A DNA stretch of 50,879 bases from an uncultured Flavobacteriales bacterium (lineage in GTDB: Bacteria > Bacteroidota > Bacteroidia > Flavobacteriales_D > Sanyastnellaceae). The DNA is taken from NCBI GenBank assembly GCA_905479115.1, contig CAJQLF010000057.1, forward strand, positions 1 through 50,879, given 5' to 3'. Below are positions 26,524 through 32,752 of this stretch, in pieces; positions within the stretch are counted from its first letter, which is position 1, and each line of letters begins with the position of its first letter. A program made the position numbers and the translations under genes. The notes beneath the pieces were generated by a model, which was given only the letters and a program-made list of their open reading frames with translations, had not been told where the DNA came from and made no database searches.

Positions 26524-26829
26524 TTAACTCAATAGGGCGCTGTCTAAGTAATGGACAAAAAACTGACAGCACCAACCGATGGAGCAGAGGCCCACTCCGG
26601 CTACATGCCATGGTCTTCTGCTTGGAGCTAATTGGTCGAATCGAATGACCATATCCACGAACAGAACAACAGATCCGATGCCTTGAGCAAGCAGCCAACC
26701 TCCCCTATAATTCTGGAACGGCGCACCAAATTCAATTTCTGAGAATATTTCGAAAAGAAAAACCAATTGCAACAGTATCATGACGGCAAAAAGCAGATTC
26801 AATGATGTTAGGGTGGAAGAGTTGCTCAT
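26524..26829 (-). CDS. Small integral membrane protein of unknown function
   Basis: From ATG 26829 (MSNSSTLTSLNLL) the protein has 101 residues and about three membrane segments: LLFAVMILLQLVFLFEIF, GWLLAQGIGSVVLFVDMVI and a C-terminal HVAGVGLCSIGWCCQFFVHY. I do not recognise a family. An upstream in-frame ATG at 26859 adds ten residues without clear benefit. It is divergent from the small lipoprotein gene at 26893 and converges with the CarboxypepD_reg-like gene (17-bp gap). The hydrophobic pattern and lack of overlap with other genes support it as real. Confidence 0.6.
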   Translation of the reverse strand: MSNSSTLTSLNLLFAVMILLQLVFLFEIFSEIEFGAPFQNYRGGWLLAQGIGSVVLFVDMVIRFDQLAPSRRPWHVAGVGLCSIGWCCQFFVHYLDSALLS

Positions 26830-26892
26830 GTTTTGAAAAAGATATACTAAGTTTGACATCCCTGCGTTCTGAACCCACCAATTGAAATAGTG

Positions 26893-27092: not shown

Positions 27093-28808
27093 TCAAAATT
27101 GGAAATAGATGAAAGGCTGGACGCCAGAAGCTAGTCCAGCGTAGGCCAATGCAATGACAGCGAGCGTTGCGGCCAATTGTACAAGGAATGGTGCGTGAGC
27201 AAAGGCCTTCCTGTAGTTTCTTTTGAATCTTTCTGGAATCAGATGAATTGCAAAACCAGCTGCCATTAGGCTCAGCACCGGTGCGTAACCGGTTGCAATT
27301 TCCAGGATGGGGCTGGACCAAAATGAGGACGTCAATCGGTTGATCATTTCATTGGCCGTGAACCATTCTTCCCAGATGTTGTGAGGTTGATCCAGGCCCT
27401 CCCAGCTGACATGGCTTCCTGATCGGAACCAAATACGGGTAAAGGTGATAAAATGAAACGTCAAAAAAATGCCGATGGCGCGTTTCCACCATTGGCGTCC
27501 TGTTTCCCATGGACTAATGCGCCTCCAGCCCTTATAAACAACCAACCCCAGCCCATTCAGTCCACCCCAAAGCACGAAATTCCAGCTCGCTCCGTGCCAA
27601 AGTCCGCCAAGGAGCATGGTCATCATTAAGTTGACGTTTGTACTAAGTCTTCTGCGAATTCCCGGTATGCCATATCCAATCGCCCCGAGAATTAAAAGGC
27701 TTCCCGCCAAAATGAGCCGGGAACCTGTATTGGGAAGCATCAGCATAACAAAGCCCCCTAAAATGCAGCCACTGATCAACGTAAACATAGAGCCTCCTCG
27801 GTTTCCGCCCATTGGGATGTAGAGGTAATCCTTTAGCCAGCTGGAAAGGCTTATGTGCCAGCGCTTCCAGAATTCGCCTACGTTGCGTGCTTTGTATGGC
27901 GAATTGAAATTCAAAGGCAACCGAAACCCCATGAGCAAGGCGATTCCGATGGCCATGTCGGTATACCCACTGAAATCAGCATAAACCTGCAAGCTGTATG
28001 CATAAAGCGCCAGCAAATTCTCGAACCCACTAAATGAACCGGGCATGGCAAATACGCGGTCGACTAGGTTTACGGCGAGGTAGTCAGCGAGCCAGATCTT
28101 TTTTATCAATCCGTTTAAAATCCAGAAGATTCCCATTCCGAATTCTGCTTGAGATAATGCGTAAGGCCGGTGCAGCTGCGGTATAAATTCCTTGGCACGC
28201 ACGATAGGCCCCGCGACCAGCTGGGGAAAGAAACTCACGAAAAAGCCAAAATCAAGGAAGCGTTTAACCGGTTCAACGTGCCCTCGGTACACGTCGATGG
28301 CATAGGACATGGTTTGAAACGTGTAAAACGATATTCCGACGGGCAGCAGAATTTGATCCACTCGAAACGTGGTGCCTAAATGTGAATTCGCCCATTGTCC
28401 GAGCGCAGCGTGCGGTTGCGACCAATGCGCACCCAGCAGCGGTTGCATGGCATCGGCGATGAAATACGCGTACTTAAAGTAGAGGAGGACACCCAAATTG
28501 ATGGCCAAACTGAGGGCGAGCCAACGTCGTTTCGCATGGCCGGTGCTTTTTCCAATGTGCGCTCCGATGAGCCAATCACAGCTTGTTGAAAAAATGAGCA
28601 GAGCGACGAACCAGCCACTTGTCTTCCAATAGAAAAACAGACTGACAGCGAACAGAAAAGCGTTTCGAGCCTGAATGCGTCTTTCCAACCGACTCAAGAT
28701 GCTCAGCCCGACAATCACTCCCCACAAAAACAGCCAAAACGTTCCATTCAAGAAAGTGAACGGTGCACCCGAATTGGGGTCAAACCAGTCAAGGAACAGA
28801 TCCATCAT
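27093..28808 (-). CDS. MBOAT family O-acyltransferase (AlgI/PatA-like)
   Basis: ATG 28808 overlaps the upstream stop (ATGA) and gives 571 residues. The protein is a multi-span membrane enzyme of the MBOAT family (PF03062). Conserved segments are LLPVGISFYTFQTMSY, FFPQLVAGPIVRAKEFIPQL, QVYADFSGYTDMAIG, FWKRWHISLSSWLKDYLY with PMGGNRGG, and GGLWHGASWNFVLWGGLNGL, whose His (about residue 405) is the family's catalytic residue. About 55 residues with two extra membrane segments separate GGNRGG from the catalytic His, which I believe marks a Bacteroidetes subfamily. MBOATs of this type pass acetyl groups across the inner membrane for glycan O-acetylation. The upstream SGNH and LysM genes form one overlapping operon with it. 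Confidence 0.93.
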   Translation of the reverse strand: MMDLFLDWFDPNSGAPFTFLNGTFWLFLWGVIVGLSILSRLERRIQARNAFLFAVSLFFYWKTSGWFVALLIFSTSCDWLIGAHIGKSTGHAKRRWLALSLAINLGVLLYFKYAYFIADAMQPLLGAHWSQPHAALGQWANSHLGTTFRVDQILLPVGISFYTFQTMSYAIDVYRGHVEPVKRFLDFGFFVSFFPQLVAGPIVRAKEFIPQLHRPYALSQAEFGMGIFWILNGLIKKIWLADYLAVNLVDRVFAMPGSFSGFENLLALYAYSLQVYADFSGYTDMAIGIALLMGFRLPLNFNSPYKARNVGEFWKRWHISLSSWLKDYLYIPMGGNRGGSMFTLISGCILGGFVMLMLPNTGSRLILAGSLLILGAIGYGIPGIRRRLSTNVNLMMTMLLGGLWHGASWNFVLWGGLNGLGLVVYKGWRRISPWETGRQWWKRAIGIFLTFHFITFTRIWFRSGSHVSWEGLDQPHNIWEEWFTANEMINRLTSSFWSSPILEIATGYAPVLSLMAAGFAIHLIPERFKRNYRKAFAHAPFLVQLAATLAVIALAYAGLASGVQPFIYFQF

Positions 28809-30031
28809 GGTCGAATTGAATTTGACCATGATGTATATCCGTTAGTCCACGCATCGAATAGAACTTCGCTTATGCGGGTGTACCCAAATTCGGTGAAATG
28901 AATGCCATCGGGTTTATACCATTGATCCAATCCCTCGGAAGCTTCATTGCGTGCTCGCTGCACGGCCATGCCCATATCCCAGAAACCCATATCGTGGGCA
29001 CTTGCATGGTCACGGAGAAATTTCTTGATCGCCTTTGAAGCGCTCGTGACAGCCGGTTTATGTCGCAAAACTGGGGTGTTCGTCATGAGAACGATAGCAG
29101 CGTTACTTCGGCGAAGTACATGGGTCAATTTGGCGTAATTCGATTGGAATTGTTCCATGTTCAGGTGGCTCCCGTCCATGGCATCATTCAATCCCATGCC
29201 GATAAAAATAAGGTCAGGGCGCAAGGTCTTCAATAATTCTTCCCAGCCTTCTATTTCATTGATGTGGGAGGCTCGCAGCCCGTTATGTCCCCACTCATGA
29301 ACAGTGTACGATGGGCCAGAGACTGGAGCGGATGCATCCATGCCCGCGTACCAGATGTTGCTGCCCAATTCCGGAATGAATTCAATAGAAAAGGTGTCTG
29401 CGGGTTGAGCAAGTTCGATGTGCCATCCCCCCATGTTTGGCAGAGGAGTGGCGGCTTTTAATTTGGAGTTCCCCGTCCATTTCCATTGATTTTTAGTTGC
29501 ATTGGTCCAAAGGGTAAGTTCAGAGGACTTCACCCGGCTTGAATCAGGAAAGTAGCCAACATGTTGAATCCAATGTGTGTCCTGGTTCGAATCTGTTTCG
29601 GGTAGAACCGTGATGCCTGTGGCGATCGGAGATGGCTGAGTGAGCGGGGCTGTGTTACGGGTGCATATATGGCTTTGCCAAGCACCGGTAAATTCCGTTC
29701 TGAAGTGGGTGGGAGTATTGGTTTCAGCGATGCGATAGGGGAGCATCATGCCTCGCGATTGTTGTGCGTTTGGTGCCCAAGCAGCCAATTCCCGCCGAAG
29801 TCCATGGCCCATCCATCCGGCTTGTACGTGAGATCCACCAATGTAGAGCACAACCAAGGTTGCATCCTCTTCCTGATCAATGGCTTCCATCTTATGATAC
29901 AACTTGTCAAAGGCGGCACATTGATCCGGTACTTCCCACGAAGCTGTGGATTGTGCAGAAGCGCAGAAAGGGGTCACCAAAACAGAAAGGACGAGGAGGC
30001 ACGAGAAAGGGAGGGCGTGTCTATTTCGCAT
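28805..30031 (-). CDS. SGNH-type hydrolase/acetyltransferase with altered GDS motif (GGS)
   Basis: ATG 30031 overlaps the end of the upstream gene by 11 bp and gives 408 residues with a signal peptide (about 1-27, ending CASAQ). SGNH landmarks: block I reads YIGGSHVQAG (Ser67 kept, the Asp of GDS replaced by Gly66), block III is FIGMGLNDAMDG (the GxND motif) and block V is KPDGIHFTEFGY (the DxxH dyad). The catalytic Ser, Asp and His therefore seem present although block I is atypical. It is probably a periplasmic partner of the MBOAT protein, transferring or removing O-acetyl groups. The stop overlaps the MBOAT start by 4 bp. A longer frame extending to 30202 would overlap the upstream gene further and was not used. 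Confidence 0.85.
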   Translation of the reverse strand: MRNRHALPFSCLLVLSVLVTPFCASAQSTASWEVPDQCAAFDKLYHKMEAIDQEEDATLVVLYIGGSHVQAGWMGHGLRRELAAWAPNAQQSRGMMLPYRIAETNTPTHFRTEFTGAWQSHICTRNTAPLTQPSPIATGITVLPETDSNQDTHWIQHVGYFPDSSRVKSSELTLWTNATKNQWKWTGNSKLKAATPLPNMGGWHIELAQPADTFSIEFIPELGSNIWYAGMDASAPVSGPSYTVHEWGHNGLRASHINEIEGWEELLKTLRPDLIFIGMGLNDAMDGSHLNMEQFQSNYAKLTHVLRRSNAAIVLMTNTPVLRHKPAVTSASKAIKKFLRDHASAHDMGFWDMGMAVQRARNEASEGLDQWYKPDGIHFTEFGYTRISEVLFDAWTNGYTSWSNSIRP

Positions 30032-31574
30032 TTTCCTCAGCCTGTTCGAATTGATCAATTTGCCACATGGCCCATTCTGTTTGGATCGATTGCCGAAAAA
30101 GCTCAGAGATTTCTCTGGCTCCTTTTGGCGTAAAGTGTATATGGTCGGAACTGGCAAGTGGTGGCGAGGATTGAACCCATGCAGCCATGCTGCCCGCTCC
30201 ACCCATTACTTCAAAAACGTCCCAATAAAGCGCGTCATTTTCCAATGCAGCTTGTTTCAAAGCATCTCGAATTGAGGGCAACTGTGCATAGGTTTCCATG
30301 CGGGTTTCGACTTTATGGGCCATGTCAGACGGTCCCATAACAATCACGGGTACCCCAGGAAGCAGTTGGTGAAACAATTGGATTTGAGAAGCAAACCATC
30401 CTCCAAAACGCTGTGTTGCCGGGGAATCAGTTAAGTAGGGTACCGCATTTCCGCCGTACTGAAGCAGAATTAAGCCCGTGCGAAAGCCTTTAAATTGCTC
30501 GGTGAGTTGAGTCCGGTCCAATGATCTAAAGAGCGTGCCAGAGCTTCCGCGCATGGCTATGTTATGCACCACAATGCCAGAATCACGCCACATGCCTACG
30601 CCATCTACTTCGGGGACCGGCCCCGAAAAGCAAAGCCGCAATGACTGGAATTCGGACGAGTCAAGGGAGGGAAGTGGGATGTCAATGCGCTGGGCGAAGC
30701 TGTCAGCTTCAAGCGGCATCGTGCGCTCGGCAAGTGCATTCAATTGATAATGCAATTGCGCCCCAGAATCCACCTGTCCAAACAAAACACTGACTTGGTT
30801 GAAGGAACGATTTCGAAGATAGCTTTTCAGATGAGGTTCAAAAGTCAAACAAGGTAAAATGCTATCGTTGCTATTGAGGCTTGGGTGCGTAGCGAAAGCG
30901 GCCATGATCCCAAAACGGTTATGAAGAATCGTTGTGTCCTTTCGTCCATAACGTGCGTGTCGAACCCAGCCTGAAGACCAGGAATGACGCATTGACAGGG
31001 AGGGGATGGGTTGCAAAGGTGAAATCAATCCAGGGCCGCTTCCTCCCCAAATGGATTGCCATTGATTGCGCAATGGACCGGTGATGCGGTCTCCTTCAAT
31101 CTGTGAGTCCCCAAAGTGAAATACGTGAATGGGCGGGGATCGTTGGGGTTGATTCAGTTGGGCGAAAAAGCGAGCCAAGGAGGTGAATGCCGCATCGCTG
31201 CCATACAGTTTTAGGTTTTCGTGCAGATAGTCATCGACGCTCAATCGACTGTAGGCTTCTGTGGGAAGAACGAATTCCTTGGTCATCTCTTCAGCAAAAG
31301 CGGGTTGGACGGAATCCTCTTGGATGATAGCGGCCGGTGGTTGCTCGATGGAATCGCTGGAAGCATACTCCGCTAGAATGGCTTGTGCTTCTTCGGGTGA
31401 CACCTGAGGTGATTCAACGGACCAAGTCGACCATCGAGGCCAATCATCTAGGTGCGTGACCAAATTCAGTGGTCTGGATAGAAAGGCGCAAACAGCAAGT
31501 AAAATAGCCGATAAAAAAATCGCTGTTCGACGAATGGAGTGCCGCTGGGTTTTTATGGGATTCTCGGAATGCAT
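30021..31574 (-). CDS. SGNH/GDSL hydrolase, membrane-anchored
   Basis: The 517-residue protein starts at ATG 31574, inside the end of the LysM gene (22-bp overlap). Residues about 17-33 form a signal anchor. An Asp/Glu-rich linker reaches about residue 105; the catalytic domain follows with HFGDSQIEGDRI (GDS at 155-157, Ser157), LLQYGGNAVPY (the GxN block) and SDHIHFTPKGAREI (the DxxH block). All four SGNH blocks are recognisable. It resembles the periplasmic partners of MBOAT acyltransferases that transfer acetate to, or remove it from, cell-surface glycans. It is paralogous in layout to the next gene, which has an altered block I. Confidence 0.87.
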   Translation of the reverse strand: MHSENPIKTQRHSIRRTAIFLSAILLAVCAFLSRPLNLVTHLDDWPRWSTWSVESPQVSPEEAQAILAEYASSDSIEQPPAAIIQEDSVQPAFAEEMTKEFVLPTEAYSRLSVDDYLHENLKLYGSDAAFTSLARFFAQLNQPQRSPPIHVFHFGDSQIEGDRITGPLRNQWQSIWGGSGPGLISPLQPIPSLSMRHSWSSGWVRHARYGRKDTTILHNRFGIMAAFATHPSLNSNDSILPCLTFEPHLKSYLRNRSFNQVSVLFGQVDSGAQLHYQLNALAERTMPLEADSFAQRIDIPLPSLDSSEFQSLRLCFSGPVPEVDGVGMWRDSGIVVHNIAMRGSSGTLFRSLDRTQLTEQFKGFRTGLILLQYGGNAVPYLTDSPATQRFGGWFASQIQLFHQLLPGVPVIVMGPSDMAHKVETRMETYAQLPSIRDALKQAALENDALYWDVFEVMGGAGSMAAWVQSSPPLASSDHIHFTPKGAREISELFRQSIQTEWAMWQIDQFEQAEENAK

Positions 31575-32752
31575 AGCACTTGGCCAATGCGAATGTAATC
31601 CTTGATTTCATTGATTTCAGCAATCCATTCGGGAGTTGTTCCGGGGTATCTTTTTGAAATATTCCACAGTGTATCGCCCTCTTTGACTTCGTGCAGGAGA
31701 CATTTTATGCCTTCACTGTAAGCTTCTTCTTCGGCAATGGTCTGCAGCACAGCCTCGGTTTTTGCCACTTCAGGAGTGGGTTGGGTCACAGGGCTTGTTC
31801 CGGCGACCCGAAGTGGCAGTCGAACGTTTCGACTGTTCAATTCTTCACAACCGATTGAACTCCCTTTCCACCACGGAATGAGTTGCTGCAATTCGGCTTC
31901 CGTCATCGACAGCTGCCTACACAAATCACTCCTCCGAACATTGCCATCGCAGGGTACCGGTTTCCATTCGCCCATCAACTGAATCCAATCGAGCGAGCGA
32001 TCTTCCAACTCGACATTGACCATCATGCGGCTGATTACTTTATAAAGGGCTAACCACTCATCCAATGCTGCATCGTAGCCTGGTTTTCCTGTCCATCTTG
32101 TGGCGAAGGCCATGCCTTTTACGTAAGCAACAAGCACACGATGAGGACTATCAGGAAACCTCCGCTGCAACTTCACAAGGGTTGCAACGGCCGCCTCTGT
32201 TGATTTATCGGGTATGTATCGTTCATCTAGGTTTGCATTGACATTGAGACCTCGGTCTATTGCATTTTCCACTTGGTTGCTCCAAAGTCCCGATTTTTGA
32301 GATGCATCCGAATGCGCATGATTGAATTGGTTAAGCAAAGCAGGCAGCCAAACAAAGGAGCGAGGCAAAGTCGAAGCAAGAAAGTGGTTCTGGACATCAG
32401 CTTTGTAAAGACCATAGAGGGCGTTAAGTTGCTGAAGTCGAAGCGCATCGTTTTCCATGAGCACGACCATGGCCATGTTTTCGATGGCTTTGTTCGCTCC
32501 CCACGCCTGCAAGGCTATTTCTAAGTCATCAAGAGACGGGACTTCTGCCTTTAACGTAGGGGAGGCCCCTGATGCTGTAAAGGGAAATCGGATTTCAAAA
32601 CTTGCAAAGTCGATACAACGGGTGCGCTGGTCAAAAGAGCTCTTCCAAGAGTCAATAGGTTCTTGCGAGAATACGAAACGGGATGCCAAAAGCAGGTACA
32701 AAAACAACATGCTCGTGTTGCGAATGCACTGAAAGAAGGTCTGTGAAGGCAT
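31553..32752 (-). CDS. LysM protein with a degenerate lytic-transglycosylase domain
   Basis: The 399-residue protein has a signal peptide (about 1-29, ending FVFSQ). Residues about 90-260 follow the MltD-type lytic transglycosylase pattern: LPRSFVWLPALL, SGLW, NLDERYIPDKSTEAAVATL and VLVAYVKG line up with the family's YLPLIES, GLWQ, DERxDPxxSTxAA and AYN motifs. At the catalytic Glu of YLPLIES this protein has Leu140, so it is probably inactive. Residues 353-396 form one LysM domain (HEVKEGDTLWNISKRYPGT, then IRIGQVLCIP) that binds the glycan strands of peptidoglycan. First gene of the overlapping operon with two SGNH proteins and the MBOAT; it likely anchors or regulates the system at murein. 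The transglycosylase reading is mine and untested. Confidence 0.82.
   Translation of the reverse strand: MPSQTFFQCIRNTSMLFLYLLLASRFVFSQEPIDSWKSSFDQRTRCIDFASFEIRFPFTASGASPTLKAEVPSLDDLEIALQAWGANKAIENMAMVVLMENDALRLQQLNALYGLYKADVQNHFLASTLPRSFVWLPALLNQFNHAHSDASQKSGLWSNQVENAIDRGLNVNANLDERYIPDKSTEAAVATLVKLQRRFPDSPHRVLVAYVKGMAFATRWTGKPGYDAALDEWLALYKVISRMMVNVELEDRSLDWIQLMGEWKPVPCDGNVRRSDLCRQLSMTEAELQQLIPWWKGSSIGCEELNSRNVRLPLRVAGTSPVTQPTPEVAKTEAVLQTIAEEEAYSEGIKCLLHEVKEGDTLWNISKRYPGTTPEWIAEINEIKDYIRIGQVLCIPRIP

Follow-up and report, generated by a model that had tools for sequence, protein, structure and literature searches.

What does a lytic transglycosylase (LT) that has lost its catalytic glutamate do at the head of an operon of glycan-modifying genes? 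This question is raised by a gene on the minus strand of a 50,879-nucleotide stretch of DNA from an uncultured Flavobacteriales bacterium (assembly GCA_905479115.1, contig CAJQLF010000057.1), the whole of which is called the window below. The gene, here named pseudo-lytic transglycosylase (pseudo-LT), is followed by three genes resembling a peptidoglycan O-acetylation set, a modification of the wall on which the control of autolysins and the resistance to lysozyme depend. We propose, with a probability of about 0.58, that the pseudo-LT is a catalytically dead MltD-type LT serving as a peptidoglycan-binding adaptor of the co-encoded O-acetylation ("OAP") machinery. Its deadness and its association with the acetylation operon are well supported by the sequences and the predicted structure.

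The pseudo-LT gene and its missing glutamate

The open reading frame (ORF) of the pseudo-LT starts with ATG at 32752 and its stop codon ends at 31553. Its features are as follows.

31553..32752, minus strand: pseudo-LT gene, 399 amino acids, with an apparent signal peptide, an MltD-type LT domain and a C-terminal LysM domain
32333..32335, minus strand: codon CTT of Leu140, which aligns with the catalytic Glu of MltD
31967..32497, minus strand: LT-fold domain, residues about 86-262, from the AlphaFold model (the MltD alignment spans model residues 71-320)
31565..31693, minus strand: LysM domain (PF01476), residues 354-396, Pfam E 2.1e-13; match to 4uz3 with Z 8.8 and root-mean-square deviation (rmsd) 1.0 over 47 residues

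From its sequence, the N-terminus looks like a signal peptide of type I, the Cys of a lipobox being absent. Residues 147-224 match the Pfam SLT family with 27.9 bits against a cutoff of 21.3 (E 1.9e-6). Among the 31 sequences of alignment A1, which include the window protein, Pfam found LysM in 31 and SLT in 19 (E <=0.01). In the HMMER alignment to Pseudomonas aeruginosa MltD (8rhe), with which a repeat using a profile agrees, residues 136-145 (LPALLNQFNH) are placed against LPVIESAYNP. Leu140 is therefore assigned to the column of the catalytic Glu, so that the LPxxES motif of the window protein has no Glu. An earlier note, made from the sequence alone, had already put Leu140 at this position, and the alignment bears it out; judged from the sequence, no acid seems to stand at the catalytic place or next to it.

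Predicted fold and state of the cleft

The AlphaFold model of the pseudo-LT, built with 31 sequences, has a predicted local distance difference test score (pLDDT) of 88.1 and a predicted template modelling score (pTM) of 0.71. When the PDB was searched with Foldseek, the top six matches were all MltD chains (E 5.8e-10 to 1.7e-6), and VIA-align superposed model residues 71-320 on P. aeruginosa MltD with Z 17.1 and rmsd 6.0, 237 residues being aligned. The MltD-like domain named in the earlier note has thus a strong structural match. The rmsd of about 6 Å in the MltD rows comes perhaps from spanning several domains, and the LT core fits MltF at 2.2-2.7 Å over 149-156 residues (VIA-align).

For the cleft, 28 live LT proteins and 71 Glu-less ones were compared. 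G155, W157, D176 and R178 are conserved in all 71 Glu-less proteins. The Gln after GLW, on the other hand, is kept in 12 of the 71 as against 28/28 live proteins (the window protein has Ser158), G215 in 4 as against 28/28, and Tyr210 in 29 as against 28/28. A replacement acid was sought in columns 134-147, none of which is acidic in at least half of the 71 Glu-less proteins. Live enzymes, too, have acids at D176, E177 and columns 121, 132 and 264. At columns 227, 232 and 248 an acid is present in 42-44 of the 71 Glu-less proteins (D227, E232 and E248 in that of the window) and mostly absent from live ones. On the whole, this weakens the case for a replacement acid. The loss of the Glu claimed in the earlier note is confirmed, but more than this residue has been lost. 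As far as sequence and model can tell, the pseudo-LT has retained the LT fold and lost the active site; a scaffold is therefore favoured over a faithful glycan groove, and the LysM domain is the likely wall anchor and the safer wall-binding part.

Conservation of the loss

Among 399 genomes of the order, matches were found in 46, all belonging to the family of the window, coded f1 (L codes denote loci, G codes genomes and g codes genera). The 40 f1 loci compared with the window omit G152, G182, G207, G257 and G277 of the 45 other matched genomes, and all of these except G277 were read later. The window and the 40 loci have Glu in 0/41 proteins, the position being occupied by Leu (22), Thr (7), Ala (6), Val (2), Ser (2) or Ile (2). 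Sixteen further f1 proteins from profile A1 and three initially omitted ones are also without Glu, giving 60/60 for the family, and a local mutation or a sequencing error is thereby ruled out as the cause.

Outside the f1 set, 30 of 45 operon-linked LTs are Glu-less (Leu 21, Cys 6, Ile 1, Ala 1, Met 1) and 15 have Glu, and Glu-less LTs are retained under ten family codes (f1, f17, f21, f25, f27, f35, f40, f42, f45 and f64). The Glu is present in 13/13 MltD paralogues unlinked to the operon (no SGNH or MBOAT match within about 1.5 kb on each side), which were chosen after their motifs had been seen and so give no unbiased rate. It is also present in 7/7 of the proteins with an LT match above 40 bits found among 80 loci from named organisms, so that a Glu-less LT was found in none of these organisms.

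Two trees were built without the catalytic column. In the quick tree (75 of 99 rows, with f1 thinned from 41 to 17), 47 Glu-less rows lie on one side of one branch with a support of 99 in the Shimodaira-Hasegawa-like approximate likelihood-ratio test (SH-aLRT). In the careful tree (51 rows, with f1 thinned to 9 and 16 more rows removed as long branches or near copies), 28 Glu-less rows are separated in the same manner by a branch with an ultrafast bootstrap (UFBoot) of 99 and an SH-aLRT of 98, found in 98% of bootstrap trees. Since the MltD rows across the branch keep the Glu, a single ancient loss would be the simplest explanation; several old losses are possible.

The ratio of nonsynonymous to synonymous substitution rates (dN/dS) of the pseudo-LT is 0.13-0.27 in five f1 pairs, one of which has a saturating dS of 1.6, and 0.04-0.27 in five pairs compared for SGNH1 and MBOAT. 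These codon comparisons put the Glu-less group under purifying selection, and a neutral relic was rejected on dN/dS. The LysM domain was found by a regular expression, which is too crude, in 51/71 Glu-less proteins; when Pfam was applied to 10 of the 20 missed, LysM appeared in 10/10 and SLT in 9/10 (L247 without SLT).

Neighbouring genes and known systems

The pseudo-LT is the first of four overlapping genes, which make an operon on the minus strand. The earlier note, which gave no strand, was right in placing it at the head. The three other genes are listed here.

30021..31574, minus strand: SGNH1, Ape1b-like, with an N-terminal helix reading as a transmembrane anchor, a low-confidence linker and an SGNH domain with a beta-rich insert
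28805..30031, minus strand: SGNH2, Ape1c-like, probable start ATG at 30031 (the mechanical ORF runs from 30202)
27093..28829, minus strand: MBOAT, Pat-like; H325, H412 and the motif FIYFQF at its C-terminus are invariant in 20/20

The SGNH1 gene and the LT gene have 22 bases in common. Residues S157, G343, N376, D477 and H480 of SGNH1, and S124, G308, N339, D432 and H435 of SGNH2 (ORF numbering), are invariant in 22/22 sequences each. A promoter scan gave 4 promoter-like sites where 7.2 were expected. A 111-residue protein with no Pfam match (26524-26859 of the window, minus strand) adjoins the operon in 17/17 loci read from the window genus (L033-L049).

By profile, the best PDB match of both SGNH proteins is the Ape1 chain 4k3u/4k7j (E 8e-35 for SGNH1 and 6.8e-44 for SGNH2), 4k7j being described as Neisseria Ape (PMC6174289). 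The SGNH1 model matches Campylobacter Ape1 and 4k3u at E 1.3e-22 to 8.7e-21 and PatB at 5.1e-4, and a PatB-like assignment of SGNH1 was rejected because the Ape1 match is far stronger. The replacement of the block II Gly by Ser or Asn that marks PatB is not seen, since G343 of SGNH1 and G308 of SGNH2 align to the Gly of Ape1. SGNH1 has the layout of a transmembrane segment plus linker described for PatB (PMC12148441). The operon showed no PatB-like protein, so the transferase is probably SGNH1 or SGNH2. The FIYFQF tail of the MBOAT is a C-terminal Tyr hexapeptide as in MBOAT-SGNH acyltransferases. By likeness of sequence, the neighbours form a putative peptidoglycan O-acetylation set.

The SGNH-SGNH-MBOAT triad and the LT fold are already known. 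An ape1b-ape1c-pat "OAP" cluster was described in Bacteroides and Porphyromonas by Weadge et al. (2005, PMC1199599), where peptidoglycan O-acetylation is given as 69.4% for B. fragilis and 27.0% for B. thetaiotaomicron. The operon of the window shares with this cluster the order SGNH-SGNH-MBOAT and the Ape1-like nature of both SGNH proteins, the correspondence being made by order and Ape1 similarity and not by accessions. It differs in having a fourth gene, the LysM pseudo-LT, ahead of the first SGNH gene; the word LysM is not in the main text of PMC1199599, where a nearby cell wall hydrolase is mentioned for Zymomonas. With MltD of P. aeruginosa (8rhe/8rhf/8rhi) the pseudo-LT shares the fold, the order of LT and then LysM, and the frame LP..S..N, GLW and DER. 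Unlike MltD, it has no catalytic Glu and is operon-linked to OAP genes, and most members have also lost G215, the Gln that follows GLW and further residues of the cleft. In the literature searched, which included few subscription papers, we found no OAP cluster described as having an LT without the Glu, and in this scope the remark of the earlier note that it had not seen such a subunit described holds.

Linkage with the triad

SGNH1, SGNH2 and MBOAT all lie beside the pseudo-LT in 36/40 f1 loci. Among the remaining four, L054 and L067 stop at contig ends and have their partners on other contigs, L041 is without partners, and in L071 the LT lies apart. For the class, 75 loci centred on SGNH1 were used, namely the 80 rows of at least 424 bits minus G058 and G494 (contig ends) and three of the window's family. 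A script counted 29 with a dead LT, 8 with a live LT, 37 with none and 1 at a contig edge; L247, scored as none because its ORF starts overlap, was read as dead, and the counts become 30, 8, 36 and 1. Where an LT is present (37 loci), it is directly upstream of SGNH1 with a gap of 0-109 bases.

In 114 f1 genomes, the pseudo-LT was found in 61, MBOAT in 68 and both in 55 (Fisher p 4e-13, ignoring relatedness). The cut-offs, at least 186 bits for LT and at least 498 bits for MBOAT, were chosen by ourselves, and 5 genomes with weaker LTs and 11 with weaker MBOATs were set aside; the p value weakens to 2e-7, again with relatedness ignored, when the eleven lower-scoring MBOAT genomes are counted. 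The operon is scattered in L262-L275 and L278-L281 (for genus g10, L071 and L281), with pseudo-LT, SGNH1 and MBOAT mostly all retained.

Natural variants of the operon

A live LT heads the same gene set in L120, L131, L147, L165 and four f73 loci, and also in L143, where SGNH2 has no match. Behind a live LT, SGNH1 is fused to MBOAT in L141:4596-7658 (1021 amino acids) and L153:7303-10467 (1055 amino acids). SGNH2-MBOAT fusions of 931-970 amino acids are present in eight f24 loci (L237, L238, L241, L253, L257-L259 and L261), in four of which a short live LT precedes the fusion. At the LT position of L118 (2345-3031) there is a 229-residue LysM-only protein, in which LysM is kept and the LT domain was not found.

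Of eight LT-less operons tested, six have LysM within SGNH2 (residues about 205-267; L146, L150, L159, L163, L164 and L183). These belong to four Flavobacterium species, one Flavobacteriaceae metagenome-assembled genome and Capnocytophaga bilenii; among the eight, LysM is absent from SGNH2 of Parabacteroides and Formosa. Since the LT-LysM protein, the LysM-only protein and the fusion each supply a LysM domain, it is thus a recurrent companion of the triad, not a universal one. As to the dead hydrolase fused to LysM described in the earlier note, LysM is present, but the fusion itself is not new, for live operon-linked relatives also carry LysM.

Proposed role and alternatives

The earlier note had proposed a targeting or regulatory subunit for peptidoglycan acetylation. 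This is the best-supported reading because the neighbours form a peptidoglycan O-acetylation set, but a role in de-O-acetylation is possible since SGNH1 and SGNH2 each resemble Ape1 esterases more than PatB, and the LT is not obligatory. We infer the adaptor or docking role, the export, the binding to the wall and to the SGNH proteins, and the direction of the reaction as follows. The pseudo-LT would be exported and would anchor on glycan strands chiefly via LysM, and the Ape1-like SGNH proteins would dock on the surface of its retained LT fold. The MBOAT would put an acyl group on the Tyr of the C-terminal FIYFQF tail, from which an SGNH protein would transfer it to N-acetylmuramic acid (MurNAc), and one of the two may take it off again. 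SGNH proteins held on an uncut strand could then acetylate or de-acetylate the polymerised wall locally. The wider proposal, that one ancient loss of the Glu made an LT into a non-enzymatic wall adaptor of the O-acetylation machinery, kept across many Bacteroidia families and steering acetylation or de-acetylation, is offered tentatively, at slightly less than even odds.

There is precedent for the LT fold as a partner. In Neisseria meningitidis, LtgA forms a complex with Ape1 and stimulates this esterase even on a substrate which LtgA itself cannot use (PMC7083599), showing that an LT can modulate the protein with which it pairs. As in this complex, an LT-fold protein would be paired with an Ape1-like esterase in the window; unlike LtgA, which is an active LT, the candidate partner is operon-encoded and dead. 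In the PatA/PatB system, PatA auto-acetylates the Tyr of its C-terminal hexapeptide, and the MBOAT of the window resembles it in this acyl-Tyr hexapeptide. The operon differs from PatA/PatB in that neither SGNH protein is PatB-like and a separate LysM protein is encoded. The 2025 PatAB study (PMC12148441) describes PatB as without wall-binding domains and does not settle whether the target is nascent or mature wall, partly because PatB has no wall-binding module. If the proposal is true, the pseudo-LT would be the targeting module that PatAB is said there to lack, and it would extend the LtgA-Ape1 idea of an LT fold as a partner, not a cutter. A conserved LysM pseudo-LT ahead of acetylation genes would make the question of nascent or mature wall testable, and nature would provide the experiments: live LT, dead LT, LysM only, LysM inside SGNH2, SGNH2-MBOAT fusion, and none.

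Several observations weigh against the adaptor role. The cleft residues are eroded, and glycan binding by the LT domain is therefore doubtful. No LT is upstream of SGNH1 in 37/75 class loci (36 after the reading of L247), and 13 of the 68 f1 genomes with MBOAT are without LT (24/79 with the weaker MBOATs), 11 of the 13 being in genus g13. Because many genomes have the triad without an LT, the triad can do without it and the pseudo-LT is not obligatory. Conversely, no MBOAT match was found in six f1 genomes with a pseudo-LT (G086, G143, G148, G162, G207 and G257), and SGNH1 was likewise not found in G143, G086 and G207, G162 being outside the SGNH1 search. G143 (96% complete; locus L041) has none of the three partners between an intact pseudo-LT ORF and the next conserved gene, G086 is 96% complete, and G207 is 93% complete with its LT at a contig end. 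The pseudo-LT is also without an adjacent triad in the loci read of six f1 genera (g4, g9, g10, g14, g18 and g19); SGNH1 is elsewhere in the genome in 10/11 genomes searched from these genera.

The strongest competitor of the adaptor, which we nevertheless consider unlikely, is a partner specific to de-O-acetylation, as LtgA is for Ape1: the pseudo-LT would stabilise or stimulate Ape1-like esterases and have no role in acyl transfer. The Ape1-first PDB matches of both profiles, the values for the SGNH1 model (Ape1 1.3e-22, PatB 5.1e-4), the hydrolase-typical block II Gly of SGNH1 and SGNH2, and the LtgA-Ape1 complex as reported in PMC7083599 all speak for such a partner. Yet with no PatB-like protein in the operon one SGNH protein is probably a transferase, SGNH2 is fused to MBOAT in the eight f24 loci and bears LysM in LT-less operons, and SGNH1 has the PatB-style layout of transmembrane segment plus linker.

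Less likely still is a free-standing decoy or regulator, which would cover glycan strands or block live LTs with no physical link to the SGNH proteins. The persistence of the pseudo-LT where SGNH1 and MBOAT were not detected (G143, G086, G207), its unlinked state in six f1 genera, and a live-type MltD with Glu in the same genome (L002), a possible target, agree with this idea. It is opposed by the fact that in several families the gene immediately precedes SGNH1, often with overlap, by the co-occurrence with MBOAT, and by LysM inside SGNH2 of LT-less operons.

That the pseudo-LT still cleaves glycan through another residue is highly improbable. G155, W157, D176 and R178 are in place in 71/71, and columns 227, 232 and 248, acidic in 42-44 of the 71 and mostly not in live enzymes, might be candidates by sequence; however, none of these columns is acidic in all Glu-less proteins, no acid adjoins the old site, and PDB titles name the E-to-Q forms of Slt and MltE inactive. 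The least probable explanation is that the pseudo-LT has no present function and is decaying from a live LT that was linked to the operon in an ancestor. This view can point to the live operon-linked LTs (15/45) and to lineages from which the gene, or its LT domain (L118), has disappeared, but hardly accords with dN/dS of 0.13-0.27, intact ORFs and retention in ten family codes.

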